From the NCBI GenBank assembly GCA_903900845.1, contig CAIUOU010000071.1, positions 1 through 38,945 on the forward strand: DNA of 38,945 bases, given 5' to 3'. The DNA is from an uncultured Opitutia bacterium (GTDB lineage Bacteria; Verrucomicrobiota; Verrucomicrobiia; Opitutales; Opitutaceae). Shown here one piece after another: positions 15,422 through 24,847 of this stretch (its first letter is position 1; the number at the start of each line of letters is the position of its first letter). The notes under the pieces were generated by a model, which saw only the letters and a list, made by a program, of their open reading frames with translations, made no database searches and was not told where the DNA came from. The translations under genes were made by a program, and so were the position numbers.

Positions 15422-15559
15422 AAGCGCGGATTCCGCCGGCACACTTAGCCGCGACCGAAGCCCCTGCGGTATGCACCGCAGTGGTGTAGCCGCGGCTGCT
15501 GCCGCGGACCACGTCGTGGGCGCGACTTTCCCCGGTCTCTGTCTCCGGGCAGCGAAAGC

Positions 15560-15593
15560 AAAAAGCCCCGCGCCTGGTGGGGCGCGGGGCTTT
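15560..15593 (-). terminator. Intrinsic terminator after ppdK
   Basis: A 13-bp perfect stem (15562-15574 pairing with 15581-15593) around a six-base loop, GC-rich at its core (GCCCCGCGCC). Read on the minus strand it ends in a run of five T from 15564 down to 15560. It begins 24 bp after the stop of the pyruvate phosphate dikinase gene and fits a Rho-independent terminator for it. Confidence 0.88.
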
Positions 15594-15617
15594 GGAGATG
15601 AGCTGCAGCGGATTCGC

Positions 15618-18401
<2,784 letters not shown>

Positions 18402-18582
18402 GGTGATGAGGATGTGGTTGGAAAAAAGGTGGGCGGCGTCTGCGCAGGAAATGGGGAGGCAATAGGTCGGGCGGGGTGAGTGTCAACGATGCAGGCGGGC
18501 TGCGGCGCGCCGTTTCCCTGATCCGCGGGCAAACCGGCCCGCGCCGCACATCACGCTTCCGTTTTGGAAAAAAGCCCCCACG

Positions 18583-19446: not shown

Positions 19447-22400
19447 ATGACAGTTGCGCCGGAAACGTGCGGCTGTTGCATGGCCGGGATGGCTCTCAAG
19501 ACCCTCGACTCGACCGCGCTCCGCGCCGTCGCCTCGGCGTTCCGGCTGGGCGGCACCTACTGCGGGGGTGCGCCGCACGGCAACGGCCACATCAATGACA
19601 CCTACGTGGTCTCGTTCGAGCAGGGCGGGGTGACGACCCGCTACATCCTCCAGCGCATCAACGAGAACGTCTTTCGTAATGTCGACGTCGTGATGGAGAA
19701 CATCGCGCGGGTCACCGCCCACGCGGGCCGTCGCGCCATCGCCTCCGGGGCCCCCGACGCCATCCGCCGCGCGCTCACGCTCATCCCCACGCGCGCGGGC
19801 GGCAACCTGCACCGTGAGCCCTCGGGCGCCTGGCGCTGCTACATTTTCATCGAGGGTGCGCAGTCCTACGACGTCATCACCGACCCTGCCATGGCCCGCG
19901 AGGGCGCGCGGGCATTCGGCGATTTCCAGCGTCTGCTCAGTGACCTGCCGGGCGGGCGCCTGCAGGAAACCATTCCGCACTTCCATGACACGCGGCGCCG
20001 GTTTGAGGCCCTGCGCCAGGCGGTGAAGGACGATCGGGTGGGGCGGGTGAAGGAGGCGCGCGCGGAGATCGCCTTCGCGATGGAGCGCGAGCCGATGGTC
20101 GACGTGGTGCTCAACCTGCTCGCCCGCGGGGATATTCCCGAGCGCGTCACGCACAACGACACCAAGCTGAACAACGTGATGATCGACGACCGCACGGGCG
20201 CCGGCATTTGCGTGATCGACCTCGACACCGTGATGCCCGGCTCGGCGCTGTATGACTTCGGTGACATGGTGCGCTCGGCGATCAACTCGGCCGCCGAGGA
20301 CGAGCCCGACGTGTCACGCGTCAACGCCCGCCTCGATCTGTTCGACTCCCTCACCGAGGGCTACCTCGCCGCCAGCCGCTCCTTCCTGAATGAGGTGGAG
20401 ATCGCCCACCTCGCCTTTTCCGGGCGGCTCATCGCGCTGGAGATCGGTATCCGTTTCCTCACCGACTTCCTGCAGGGCGACGTCTATTTCAAGGTCAAGC
20501 GTCCGGCTCACAACCTCGAGCGCGCCCGCAGCCAGTTCGCGCTCCTGCGCAGCATGGAGGCCCAGCGCGAGCGCATGGAGGAGATCGTGCGCCGGCACGC
20601 CGCCAAGCCGGTTCCTTCCACCGCCGGCGCCGGCGCGCCGGTTCTTTCCACGCCGGAGTCCCAGCAGCGCGAGCGCATCGCGACCGAAGTGTTCGCGGAC
20701 GCCGACGAGGCTTGCGCGCGTCTGGCGGACGAGATCGCCGGGCTGATCCGCCAGAACGACGCCGCCGGCCGGCCGACCGTCCTTGGTCTCGCCACCGGCT
20801 CCACCCCGGTCCGGCTTTACCGGCAGCTCATCCGACTCCACCGCGAGCAGGGTCTCAGTTTCCACCGGGTCATCACCTTCAACCTCGACGAATACCACGG
20901 CCTCACCCGCGAGCATCCGGAGAGCTACTGGCGCTTCATGCACGAGCAGCTCTTCAACCACATCAACATCCCGGCGGAGAACGTGAACGTCCCTGACGGC
21001 ACCATGCCGAGGGCTGAGGTTTACGGGTGGTGCCGGCGCTACGAGGAGAAGATCCGCGCCGCGGGCGGCATCGATCTCCAGATTCTCGGCATCGGGCGCA
21101 CGGGCCACATCGGCTTCAACGAGCCCGGCTCCTCGCGCGAGTCGCGCACGCGGCTGGTCACGCTCGACGGCCTCACCCGGCGCGACGCCGCGCGCGACTT
21201 CCTCGGCGAGGCCAACGTGCCGCGCCATGCGATCACGATGGGGGTGGGCACTATCCTCGACGCCCGACGGATCGCGCTGCTCGCATGGGGCGAGGGCAAG
21301 GCCGGGGTTTTGGCCGACGCGGTCGAGGGCGCGCCGAAGGACTCGCTGCCCGCCAGCTTCCTGCAGGGCCACCCGCAGGTGCGCTTCCTGATCGACCGCG
21401 CCGCGGCTTCGGCGCTCACCCGCGTTCGTTACCCGTGGCTGGTCAGCCCGATCCGTTGGACGCCCGCCATGATCCGCCGCGCAGTGATCTGGCTTTCACG
21501 CCAGGCGAAGAAGCCGGTGCTGAAACTGCTCGACGAGGATTACGGTGAGCACGGCATGGCTGATCTCCTGACGGAGCACGGGCCTTCCTATCAGCTCAAC
21601 ATCAGGGTCTTTAACGAGATCCAGCACACGATCACCGGCTGGCCCGGCGGCAAGCCCAACGCCGACGACTCCTCGCGGCCCGAGCGCGCTTTCCCCTTCC
21701 CGAAGCGGATCATCGTCTTCAGCCCGGAGCCGTCGCACGATGTGCTGGGCATGGGAGCCACGCTCCGCCGGCTGAAGGACCAAGGGCACATCGTGTCCGT
21801 GGCCTACCTGACTTCCGGAAACCTCGCGGTGCCCGACGAGGAAGGCGCGATGGCGGCGGAGCTGGTCGGTGAGATCGCCGGCACCCTCGGTCAGACCAAG
21901 GATCCGGTGGCCGATTTCGCCGAGGGCGTCCGAAGGGAGCTGGCGGGTAAGAAAGCCTTCGCGGCCGACTCGGCCGGCATCCGTCGCCTCAAGGCGCTGC
22001 TGCGGCGCGGGGAGGCCCGAGCCTCATTGCGTGACTGCGATCTCACGCCCGCCCAGGCGACGTTTCTCGATTTGCCGTTTTACGAGCGCGGCCGCTACCG
22101 CCAGTTTGCGCCGGGACCGGCGGACCTCGCCGCGGTGGTCAACCTCCTGCGCGAGGCCATGCCTCACCAGATCTTTCTCACGGGTGACCGGGACGATCCG
22201 ACCTCGATCACCGCGGTGTGCCACGGGCTTTTGCGTCGCGCGTGCCGCGAGGTCGCCGGCGAGGCGTGGTTCAAGGATTGCCGGGCGTGGTCGTACCGGG
22301 GCGTCGACCAGCCATGGGAGGCGGCCGACGTCGACATGGCGGTGCCGCTCAGCCCGCGCGAACTCGCGCAGAAGATGCAGGCGGTCTTCCACCACAAGAG

Positions 22401-22551
22401 CCAGCGCAGCCAGACTCCGGTGGCGTCGGGGCTGCGCGAGCCATGGCAGCAGGCCGAGCAGCAGAATCGCGCGCTCGCCGAGACCTACGACGGCCTAGGG
22501 CTCGCCGATTACGAGGCAATCGAGGGTTTCGCGAGGATTCATCTGGCCTGA
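19447..22551 (+). CDS. Fusion: hexosamine kinase-like + NagB + degenerate PIG-L domain
   Basis: One uninterrupted frame of 1034 residues with three parts. Residues ~15-383 form an APH-fold kinase of the N-acetylhexosamine 1-kinase (NahK) type, with HNDTKLNNVMID (catalytic Asp238) and the metal-binding segment VIDLDTVMPG (Asp258/Asp260). A Pro/Ala/Ser/Gly linker (~384-407) leads to a glucosamine-6-phosphate deaminase (NagB) domain (~408-660) with ATGSTP, FNLDEYHGL (Asp481) and GIGRTGHIGFNEPGS; Thr552 replaces E. coli Asp141. Residues ~750-1034 resemble LmbE/PIG-L deacetylases but lack the expected ligands (SPEPSHD for SPHPDDD). NagB-LmbE proteins of about 650 residues are known; the added kinase is what I find unusual. 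The start is provisional (ATG 19480 or 19489 also possible). Likely cytoplasmic amino-sugar catabolism. Confidence 0.9.
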   Translation: MTVAPETCGCCMAGMALKTLDSTALRAVASAFRLGGTYCGGAPHGNGHINDTYVVSFEQGGVTTRYILQRINENVFRNVDVVMENIARVTAHAGRRAIASGAPDAIRRALTLIPTRAGGNLHREPSGAWRCYIFIEGAQSYDVITDPAMAREGARAFGDFQRLLSDLPGGRLQETIPHFHDTRRRFEALRQAVKDDRVGRVKEARAEIAFAMEREPMVDVVLNLLARGDIPERVTHNDTKLNNVMIDDRTGAGICVIDLDTVMPGSALYDFGDMVRSAINSAAEDEPDVSRVNARLDLFDSLTEGYLAASRSFLNEVEIAHLAFSGRLIALEIGIRFLTDFLQGDVYFKVKRPAHNLERARSQFALLRSMEAQRERMEEIVRRHAAKPVPSTAGAGAPVLSTPESQQRERIATEVFADADEACARLADEIAGLIRQNDAAGRPTVLGLATGSTPVRLYRQLIRLHREQGLSFHRVITFNLDEYHGLTREHPESYWRFMHEQLFNHINIPAENVNVPDGTMPRAEVYGWCRRYEEKIRAAGGIDLQILGIGRTGHIGFNEPGSSRESRTRLVTLDGLTRRDAARDFLGEANVPRHAITMGVGTILDARRIALLAWGEGKAGVLADAVEGAPKDSLPASFLQGHPQVRFLIDRAAASALTRVRYPWLVSPIRWTPAMIRRAVIWLSRQAKKPVLKLLDEDYGEHGMADLLTEHGPSYQLNIRVFNEIQHTITGWPGGKPNADDSSRPERAFPFPKRIIVFSPEPSHDVLGMGATLRRLKDQGHIVSVAYLTSGNLAVPDEEGAMAAELVGEIAGTLGQTKDPVADFAEGVRRELAGKKAFAADSAGIRRLKALLRRGEARASLRDCDLTPAQATFLDLPFYERGRYRQFAPGPADLAAVVNLLREAMPHQIFLTGDRDDPTSITAVCHGLLRRACREVAGEAWFKDCRAWSYRGVDQPWEAADVDMAVPLSPRELAQKMQAVFHHKSQRSQTPVASGLREPWQQAEQQNRALAETYDGLGLADYEAIEGFARIHLA

Positions 22552-22583: not shown

Positions 22584-23978
22584 ATGATTGATGTCCGTCC
22601 TTCATTGCCGCCGCCGTTGGAGCGGAACTTCGCCCCGGCCGCGCTGTGGAACCGCGCCTACCGCGACCTGGTGGCCCGCGACCCCTCGGCCCGCCCTTTG
22701 GCGGTTGTCGTCAGTTCGACCGCCGGCGCGGTTTCGCGTCACGACACGCACGTGCTCGGGGCCGGACATCCCGCCGCGGCGCTCTCGCTCACCTACGTGG
22801 AACGCCTCGTTAAGTTCCTGCTCTGGCAGAAAGGCGGCTGCTACGTGCGGATCGCGGGGGCCGAGGAGATCGTCTCCGGGCTGAAGCGGATCTACTCCGA
22901 AAGCGGCGGGCGCGCCTTCGACCATCGGTTCATGGGGGCGACCACGTTCCGTGAGCCGTTCGTGCTCGAGGCGGCATCTCTTTCGGCGCTGCCCGAGGGC
23001 AGGGTGGCTTCGCTGGCGGTTGGCCGGCACCTTGACGGCTGCCGGATCGGCTTCGACCTCGGCGGCAGCGACCGCAAGGCCGCCGCGGTGATCGACGGGA
23101 AGGTCGTTTTCTCCGAGGAAATTACCTGGGATCCGTACTTTCAAAAGGATCCCGCGTATCACCTTGAGGGTGTGCACGACTCGTTGCGGCGCGCGGCCGC
23201 GCACCTGCCGCGGGTCGATGCGATCGGCGGCAGCTCAGCCGGGGTCTACGTGAACAACGAGGTACGGGTCGCGTCGCTGTTCCGCGGAGTGCCGACGGAC
23301 CTTTTCGACCGGCACGTGCGCCGGATGTTTTTCACGCTCCAGCAGCGGTGGGGCGGGGTACCGTTTGAAGTGGCCAACGACGGCGAGGTCACGGCTCTCG
23401 CCGGCTCCATGTCGCTCGGCGACGGTGCGGTGCTGGGAATCGCGATGGGCACGAGCCTCGCGGCCGGTTACGTGACGCCGGAAGGCGGCATCACCCCGTG
23501 GTTGAACGAGCTCGCCTTCGCGCCGGTGGACTACCACCCGGCGGCGCCACGCGACGAGTGGTCGGGCGACATCGGTTGCGGCGTCCAGTATTTCTCGCAA
23601 CAGGCGGTTGGCCGGCTGGCCCCGATCGCGGGTTTCGCTTTGCCCGCCGGACTGCCGCTGCCCGAGCAACTCATCGAGGTGCAGCGGGCGATGGCGGCGG
23701 GTGACACGCGCGCCCGGGCGATTTACGAGACCATCGGCGCCGATTTCGGTTACGCGATCGCGCACTTCGCCGATCATTACGAGCTGCGCCACGTGCTGCT
23801 GCTCGGCCGCGTATCCTCGGGAGCCGGCGGCGAGATCATTCTCGACCGGGCCCGTGCGGTCTTGCGCACGGATTTTCCCGAATTGGCGGAGAAAGTCCGA
23901 CTGCACACGCCCGATGAGAAGGACCGTCGCCACGGGCAGGCCGTGGCCGCGGCCAGTCTGCCGGCTCTCCGGCGCTGA
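22584..23978 (+). CDS. ROK-family sugar kinase-like protein
   Basis: A 464-residue cytoplasmic protein starting at ATG 22584, 32 bp after the fusion gene. About 150 N-terminal residues without a recognised motif precede the ROK core. The core has a phosphate-binding loop FDLGGSDRK (Asp158), a catalytic-type aspartate in ANDGEVTALAG (Asp266), and an adenosine-loop equivalent MGTSLAAGYV. The CxCGxxGC zinc motif of many ROK kinases is absent, and there is no helix-turn-helix, so this is an enzyme-type rather than a repressor-type ROK protein. Context (amino-sugar deaminase upstream, PIG-L deacetylase downstream) suggests phosphorylation of GlcNAc, glucosamine or a related sugar. Substrate is inferred. 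Confidence 0.85.
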   Translation: MIDVRPSLPPPLERNFAPAALWNRAYRDLVARDPSARPLAVVVSSTAGAVSRHDTHVLGAGHPAAALSLTYVERLVKFLLWQKGGCYVRIAGAEEIVSGLKRIYSESGGRAFDHRFMGATTFREPFVLEAASLSALPEGRVASLAVGRHLDGCRIGFDLGGSDRKAAAVIDGKVVFSEEITWDPYFQKDPAYHLEGVHDSLRRAAAHLPRVDAIGGSSAGVYVNNEVRVASLFRGVPTDLFDRHVRRMFFTLQQRWGGVPFEVANDGEVTALAGSMSLGDGAVLGIAMGTSLAAGYVTPEGGITPWLNELAFAPVDYHPAAPRDEWSGDIGCGVQYFSQQAVGRLAPIAGFALPAGLPLPEQLIEVQRAMAAGDTRARAIYETIGADFGYAIAHFADHYELRHVLLLGRVSSGAGGEIILDRARAVLRTDFPELAEKVRLHTPDEKDRRHGQAVAAASLPALRR

Positions 23979-23995: not shown

Positions 23996-24847
23996 ATGAA
24001 ACTCTCGAATCCCCAGGCCGACATTTATGTCCCCGGCGCGGACGCCACGCCGGAACAGGCGCTCGCGCGGGTCACGCACCTTTGCCTCGGCGCGCATCAG
24101 GACGACATCGAGATCATGGCGCATGCCGGCATCTCCGATTGCCTCGACACGCCCGGCAAGGCCTTCGGTGGAGTCGTCGTCACCAATGGTGCCGGTTCAC
24201 CCCGCACCGGCCCGTACGCGCACCTGACCGATGAACAAATGCAGGGCGTGCGGCGCGAGGAGCAGCGCAAGGCCGCCACGCTCGGCCGCTACGCGATCCA
24301 GCTCCAGTTGGCGCATCCCAGCTCCGTCGTGAAGACCCCGGGCCACGCCGGCGTGGCCGCCGATCTGGCCGCCATCTTTGGCGGATGCCGCGCGGAGGTG
24401 GTTTATCTCCACAATCCGGCGGACAAGCACGACACCCATGTCGCCGTGCTGCACCGCTGCCTTGAGGCGATTCGGGCGCTTCCCGCCGACCGCCGTCCGC
24501 GGCGGGTTCTCGGCTGCGAGGTCTGGCGCGATCTTGATTGGATGGTGGACTCCGACAAGGTTGCGCTGGATGCCGGCCGGCACCCGGCGCTGGCCCTCGA
24601 ACTGCTCAAGGTTTTCGACTCGCAGGTCACCGGAGGCAAACGCTACGACCTTGCGACCATGGGCCGACGCTCGGCGCACGCCACCTACCACACGTCCCAC
24701 GCGACGGATTGCGTGGCCGGCATCACTTGGGCGATGGACCTCACGCCGCTCGTTTCGAACCCGACCGCCTCCCTCGAGGAGTTCACGGTCGCTTATATCC
24801 GCCGTTTGCAGGAAGACGTGCAGGCGCGCGTCCGCCGGTTCGCCTGA
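23996..24847 (+). CDS. PIG-L/LmbE family deacetylase
   Basis: A 283-residue zinc-dependent N-deacetylase-like protein beginning 17 bp after the ROK gene. The metal site looks intact: GAHQDDIEIM (His and Asp ligands, an H-x-D-D form of the usual HPDD) and a later HDTH in LHNPADKHDTHVAV. Family members remove acetyl from GlcNAc-containing molecules. No signal peptide is seen, so it should be cytoplasmic. It closes the cluster with the kinase-NagB fusion and the ROK kinase. An attractive but untested role is deacetylation of GlcNAc or its phosphate before deamination, replacing NagA. Confidence 0.9.
   Translation: MKLSNPQADIYVPGADATPEQALARVTHLCLGAHQDDIEIMAHAGISDCLDTPGKAFGGVVVTNGAGSPRTGPYAHLTDEQMQGVRREEQRKAATLGRYAIQLQLAHPSSVVKTPGHAGVAADLAAIFGGCRAEVVYLHNPADKHDTHVAVLHRCLEAIRALPADRRPRRVLGCEVWRDLDWMVDSDKVALDAGRHPALALELLKVFDSQVTGGKRYDLATMGRRSAHATYHTSHATDCVAGITWAMDLTPLVSNPTASLEEFTVAYIRRLQEDVQARVRRFA

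Follow-up and report, generated by a model that had tools for sequence, protein, structure and literature searches.

The window analyzed here, a 38,945-nucleotide contig (CAIUOU010000071.1, assembly GCA_903900845.1; genome G000 in our samples) from an uncultured Opitutia bacterium of the Opitutaceae, carries on its forward strand a gene that joins an N-acetylhexosamine kinase-like domain, a glucosamine-6-phosphate deaminase (NagB) domain and an LmbE-like domain. The three-part fusion is real and conserved, and it is apparently undescribed. A first-pass annotation of the sequence had called an N-terminal kinase in this setting unfamiliar, and we found no paper describing such a kinase fusion in the open-access PMC literature. 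The fusion joins two known kinds of enzyme.

Domains and start of the fusion gene

The 1034-codon frame (19447-22551, +) is free of stops, and the annotation's three domains in one frame are borne out by Pfam and NCBIfam matches and by three predicted folds. Pfam places APH at residues 43-296 (E 2.5e-21), Glucosamine_iso at 418-642 (E 8.8e-22) and PIG-L at 757-917 (E 8.7e-6), the last at 26.7 bits, just below its 28.2-bit cut-off. The NagB-LmbE family model NF002557 (PRK02122) matches residues 402-1032 with 814.2 bits against a cut-off of 384, covering profile positions 20-651 of 653, in agreement with the annotation's statement that long NagB-LmbE proteins are known; unlike that family, the window protein has a kinase added at its N-terminus and has lost the LmbE metal ligands. 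An AlphaFold2 model has a mean predicted local distance difference test score (pLDDT) of 83; breaks occur at the linker (model residues 376-392) and at a small number of loops. Because its predicted template modelling score is only 0.60, the relative placement of the domains was left unused. Fold comparison of this predicted model with VIA-align assigned folds to all three parts.

The annotation's start at 19447 probably lies 11-14 codons upstream of the true one. In all eight other fusions a Met lies 32 or 33 residues ahead of the motif GHINDT, with a second Met at 35 in five of the eight; the equivalent places in the window, in a comparison that considered ATG only, are 19489 and 19480, and either fits these positions better than 19447. 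The true start is probably 19489, giving a gene of 1020 residues (19489-22551, +).

The kinase domain (19504-20613, +; model residues 6-375) matches Bifidobacterium longum NahK with 293 bits (E 2e-86) over positions 9-366 of the 372-residue query. It superimposes on the NahK fold with a Z of 47.9 and a root-mean-square deviation (rmsd) of 2.1 over 356 residues at 42-43% identity, and Foldseek gives a TM-score of 0.92 by target length. The segments THNDTKLNN and IDLDT, the Arg of IRFL and the Tyr of GDVYF are identical in the NahK alignment; we take these to hold the catalytic Asp (HND), the Mg-binding Asp (IDLD) and the sugar-side residues Arg306 and Tyr317. The likeness to NahK/LnpB of B. longum (PDB 4OCJ, 4WH1) thus covers the whole-domain fold, the HND and IDLD motifs and the conserved Arg/Tyr near the C-terminal end. 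In contrast to the B. longum protein, which the available text of PMC8106489 and PMC9599254 presents as a stand-alone enzyme belonging to the lacto-N-biose pathway, the Opitutaceae kinase forms the N-terminal third of a fusion. By sequence and predicted fold this is a NahK-type kinase (EC 2.7.1.162), with phosphorylation of N-acetylglucosamine (GlcNAc) or N-acetylgalactosamine (GalNAc) at O1 predicted from gene context.

A linker of low confidence (20614-20664, +) follows, with pLDDT under 50, consistent with the Pro/Ala/Ser-rich linker that had been noted. The NagB domain (20674-21435, +; model residues 396-649) scores 268.5 bits against the equivalog model TIGR00502 (cut-off 236.9) and matches NagB structures with a Z of about 34. 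Catalysis in E. coli NagB presumably involves Asp72, Asp141, His143, Glu148 and Lys208, four of which (Asp72, His143, Glu148 and Lys208) are kept in the window. The place of Asp141 is taken by Thr in 69/69 aligned NagB-LmbE proteins, and by Asn in Bacillus subtilis NagB (2bkv). A mostly helical connector (21436-21699, +; model residues 650-737), in which the nine fusions average 85% pairwise identity, leads to the LmbE-like domain.

The fold of this last domain (21700-22542, +; model residues 738-1018) had been recognized correctly; what had been missed is the loss of its metal ligands. It resembles LmbE/PIG-L de-N-acetylases such as BshB, MshB and diacetylchitobiose deacetylase, aligning with BshB at a Z of 22.2 (rmsd 2.8, 207 residues) and with the diacetylchitobiose deacetylase fold at a Z of about 22. 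According to the available text of PMC4101496, LmbE enzymes require an HXDD motif and a further His for metal binding. The window domain reads EPSH...DRDDPTS, with EPSH in place of HxDD and the third His gone, whereas the motif is present in a separate PIG-L gene downstream. Across 69 aligned NagB-LmbE proteins, including the window and the other fusions, both His are lacking in 63 and the motif is intact in six. With its metal site lost, the domain is probably not a deacetylase, as judged from sequence, and the loss is older than the fusion, since unfused proteins share it. Among the matches listed, a second NagB-LmbE subfamily of the same phylum (L099, L100, L110, L111, L114 and L115) has the full LmbE metal motif, and one genome (G037) holds both kinds; active and degenerate LmbE versions can thus be compared.

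Distribution, origin and predicted operon of the fusion

Within a sample of 27 genomes of the genus, G000 included, the whole protein occurs in one frame in nine (G000, G081, G104, G121, G123, G126, G130, G133 and G134), the other eight being 70-79% identical to the window. Their public records (L050-L056, L067) are all metagenome-assembled, some with titles naming groundwater, a pond or deep water casts. NagB-LmbE is unfused in G006 and G124, and only its C-terminal end, at a contig edge, was recovered in G122; the remaining 15 genomes gave no NagB-LmbE match at E 1e-20, but separate matches of the kinase type, the NagB type or both were obtained in every one of them. The annotation had raised the prospect of a hidden stop or start, a misassembly, or homologues always encoded as two genes. 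Full-length single-frame homologues in nine genomes show that this is no sequencing or assembly artefact. Among the matches listed outside the fused group, the kinase and NagB-LmbE are encoded by separate genes that often lie side by side.

Mean pairwise identity among the nine fusions is 77% for the kinase, 46% for the linker, 87% for NagB and 82% for the LmbE-like domain, and the corresponding ratios of nonsynonymous to synonymous variation (pN/pS) are 0.27, 0.71, 0.18 and 0.21. By this sequence measure the domains are under purifying selection. The linker derives from a former intergenic gap, as comparison with the split congener G124 (L060) indicates: there the kinase ends in TGA and, 61 nucleotides on, an ATG begins MNSYTPESQQRER, while the window at the same place reads APVLSTPESQQRER, with no stop. 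Seven of the nine fusions retain a Met in frame where NagB formerly started; the window and G126 have lost it.

In a kinase tree of 45 rows the nine fusions form one clade (support 99/97), and in a NagB-LmbE tree of 69 rows eight of them are joined at 100/100, with L055 (G134) placed loosely. The fusion probably arose once, in a single Opitutaceae genus, out of the gene order kinase / NagB-LmbE / ROK / PIG-L; a second fusion event or later splits may also have occurred. The phylum-wide search for fusions rests on the matches listed, from which rarer fusions could have escaped. Candidate independent fusions outside the genus, in G499, G645, G509, G395, G420, G435 and G563, suggested by matches to about query positions 20-667, proved to be adjacent separate frames, and on a rough look extra-long stop-to-stop frames in G100, G450 and G060 were not shown to be domain fusions.

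Thirty-two nucleotides downstream of the fusion, in what we infer to be the same operon, lies a ROK-fold sugar kinase-like gene (22584-23978, +). Its product of about 464 residues, with an extra N-terminal part, matched no Pfam or NCBIfam model; its predicted fold is ROK, the best match being a glucokinase (E 4.3e-14), alongside GlcNAc and N-acetylmannosamine kinases and ROK regulators. The gene adjoins NagB-LmbE and PIG-L genes in relatives. Next comes the separate PIG-L/LmbE de-N-acetylase (23996-24847, +; PF02585, 46.4 bits), whose intact metal motif, HQDD...DKHDTH in the window, is kept as HxDD and a later DKH..H in 40/40 aligned rows, window included. ROK and PIG-L genes lie downstream in eight of the nine fusion loci, with ROK only partly recovered in L067, and neither was seen at L055. 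The unfused genome G049 has NTP-kinase-NagB/LmbE-ROK-PIG-L, the same order as the window. Promoter and terminator scans returned no more hits than in shuffled sequence. Elsewhere in the window, a 1002-residue open frame (15471-18479) runs antisense to a 927-residue frame (15618-18401, -), which we take to encode pyruvate phosphate dikinase; the former is probably a GC-rich shadow frame.

Kinase neighbors and GlmS across relatives

We compared 40 kinase loci from across the phylum, hand-picked from the matches listed to span families and several of them shortened by contig ends, counting as neighbors genes within 1.5 kb on the same strand. A nucleotidyltransferase lies beside the kinase at 17 loci, a GalE-like epimerase at 15 and at least one of these at 23; a ROK, PIG-L or NagB homologue does so at 17, and both kinds of neighbor occur together at 10. 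In another family, G398 (L095:4058-7003), which at a guess we take to be Akkermansia, a 53%-identical kinase sits between epimerase and nucleotidyltransferase genes and no fusion was seen; an NCBIfam scan of this kinase alone gave no match. G000 itself holds a single-copy nucleotidyltransferase (52% identical; C17:18612-19475). That nucleotidyltransferase and epimerase genes often adjoin relatives of the fused kinase recalls bifidobacteria, where, in the available text of PMC8106489 and PMC9599254, kinase, nucleotidyltransferase and epimerase follow the logic of a 1-kinase making uridine diphosphate (UDP) sugars. Together with the NahK-like residues and fold, these neighbors argue against the different kinase regiochemistry that the annotation had considered. 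Two further arrangements were observed: a large amino-sugar operon in G046 (L120:154-11289) with, by Pfam labels, nucleotidyltransferase, kinase, epimerase, NagB-LmbE, GH20 hexosaminidase, SSF (sodium:solute symporter), ROK and PIG-L genes, and, in eight family-f48 genomes (L084-L089, L092, L093), two diverged NahK-like kinases in tandem directly before a single-domain nagB.

Of 120 same-family genomes, 108 match the glmS model TIGR01135 at E 1e-30, with 101 of these over the cut-off and seven giving partial or weaker matches. The genomes without a match include G000, G081 and G104, the only fusion genomes in this sample (three of the nine fusions); the unfused congeners G006 and G054 have glmS. 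Searched alone, G000 reached 24 bits, with 14/14 controls over the cut-off. By simple counting, the chance that all three fusion genomes lack glmS is about 0.0008 (12 unmatched genomes) or 0.0035 (19 not over cut-off). Other searches were less telling: glmU passed the cut-off in 0/27 genus genomes, a result that is not interpretable since only 9/14 controls did so, and the partial glmM matches in G000 (74 and 65 bits) are likewise not interpretable with 8/14 controls over the cut-off. G000 also has three NagA-like genes (199.9, 179.7 and 168.3 bits), all under the 225.65-bit cut-off, which 7/14 controls passed; an absence of NagA as the reason for the fusion is thus unsupported.

A parallel exists in Akkermansia muciniphila, which, according to the available text of PMC5902328, is without GlmS, needs GlcNAc or GalNAc, and has a NagB that, in the judgement of that paper, could not carry out amination under physiological conditions. 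The word "kinase" does not occur in the main text of that paper, which names no kinase for this supply. Shared features are the absence of glmS, there in A. muciniphila and here in three fusion genomes, wall synthesis there that is fed by GlcNAc/GalNAc, and, in G398, the related kinase between epimerase and nucleotidyltransferase genes. The comparison differs in that no fusion was seen in G398.

A branch-point reading and its alternatives

We favor, with a probability of roughly 0.6, the view that the fusion of two neighboring operon genes has produced a branch-point amino-sugar enzyme, set between salvage to UDP-GlcNAc and deamination to fructose-6-phosphate. Sequence and predicted folds point this way, and the joining of two genes is a good indication that their products act together. 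The kinase would convert GlcNAc (or GalNAc) and adenosine triphosphate to N-acetylhexosamine-1-phosphate, from which the unlinked nucleotidyltransferase would make UDP-GlcNAc for the cell wall. NagB would turn glucosamine-6-phosphate into fructose-6-phosphate and ammonia for glycolysis, its substrate being supplied from GlcNAc by the ROK-fold kinase and a deacetylase, either the operon PIG-L protein or a NagA-like enzyme. The LmbE-like part would be structural or regulatory. The fusion would hold the two activities at a 1:1 ratio and would allow a single polypeptide both to sense the GlcNAc pool and to divide it; where a lineage has no GlmS, most wall precursor would come through the kinase branch. 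The annotation's puzzle, that a 1-kinase and a 6-phosphate deaminase are not consecutive steps, therefore stands, as a branch point and not as odd regiochemistry. Regarding its suggestion of channelling or regulation, direct channelling from the 1-phosphate to the 6-phosphate step is without support, and shared branch-point control is the simpler reading.

Several observations weigh against this view. None of the sought neighbors occurs at 10/40 kinase loci; in G000 the nucleotidyltransferase lies on another contig than the fusion, and for the cluster's epimerase nothing closer than a 36% match was found there. With three NagA-like genes in G000, ordinary GlcNAc-6-phosphate catabolism may be able to proceed without the PIG-L gene. 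The glmS model was also unmatched in 9/117 other relatives, and 16/117 are without a match over the cut-off; since the three fusion genomes are related drafts, the glmS pattern is a lead and not a test. The nine fusions form one group in only 48% of bootstraps of the NagB-LmbE tree. Finally, GGAGGAG precedes an in-frame GTG at 20587 in the window (20577-20589), just ahead of the linker, and this signal and the old Met kept in seven of the nine fusions suggest that a separate NagB-LmbE protein could be made by internal initiation.

The linkage might instead be neutral, a stop lost between co-transcribed genes and tolerated through a flexible linker, with nothing gained. A disordered and poorly conserved linker (46% identity, pN/pS 0.71), the persistence of the old start codon in 7/9 and the existence of unfused relatives that manage without linkage would all fit, yet nine species have kept the frame open and the domains conserved despite divergence to 70-79% identity with the window, the old Met is gone from the window and G126, and none of the three fusion genomes tested gave a glmS match. 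We consider a neutral fusion unlikely. We give still less credence to a purely catabolic 1-phosphate route, in which GlcNAc would pass to GlcNAc-1-phosphate (kinase), glucosamine-1-phosphate (operon PIG-L), glucosamine-6-phosphate (a hexosamine mutase) and fructose-6-phosphate (NagB), the fused ends being its first and last steps. We know of no PIG-L enzyme that acts on GlcNAc-1-phosphate; the mutase has no candidate, the GlmM-model matches in G000 being only partial; and the nucleotidyltransferase and epimerase neighbors (23/40) point to UDP-sugars. In favor of the route are the intact deacetylase downstream of the fusion and the NahK-type kinases directly before nagB in G499 and the eight family-f48 genomes. 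It would also bypass an enzyme converting GlcNAc-1-phosphate to GlcNAc-6-phosphate, which the available text of PMC9599254 states has not been described in prokaryotes. Three folds in one chain would give consecutive steps if the kinase acted at O6, the LmbE-like domain deacetylated and NagB deaminated, making a complete GlcNAc-to-fructose-6-phosphate enzyme. This we regard as very improbable, as kinase residues and neighbors fit a 1-kinase, the adjoining ROK-fold kinase suits the 6-kinase step better, and the lost metal motif leads us to reject the LmbE-like domain as the GlcNAc-6-phosphate deacetylase of such a one-protein pathway.

Read as a branch-point enzyme, the fusion links a sugar-1-phosphate kinase to the deaminase through which amino sugars become committed to glycolysis, and it makes testable how GlcNAc-1-phosphate relates to GlcNAc catabolism. 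Kinases of this type are known chiefly from bifidobacteria and from biotechnology. A broader proposal, which we put forward tentatively and think more likely wrong than right, is that some Verrucomicrobiota, having lost GlmS, no longer make glucosamine-6-phosphate and assemble their walls from salvaged GlcNAc/GalNAc, using an epimerase and a dedicated nucleotidyltransferase alongside a NahK-type kinase, which would be the "GlcNAc shortcut" suggested for Akkermansia, and that one Opitutaceae genus welded this essential kinase to NagB, giving one protein that would choose between wall and glycolysis, with the dead deacetylase domain in a regulatory role. What most deserves to be followed up is the connection with GlmS loss, which makes testable which genes let GlmS-less Verrucomicrobiota feed GlcNAc/GalNAc directly into the cell wall, the candidates being the kinase, the nucleotidyltransferase and the epimerase, including those of the G398 cluster.

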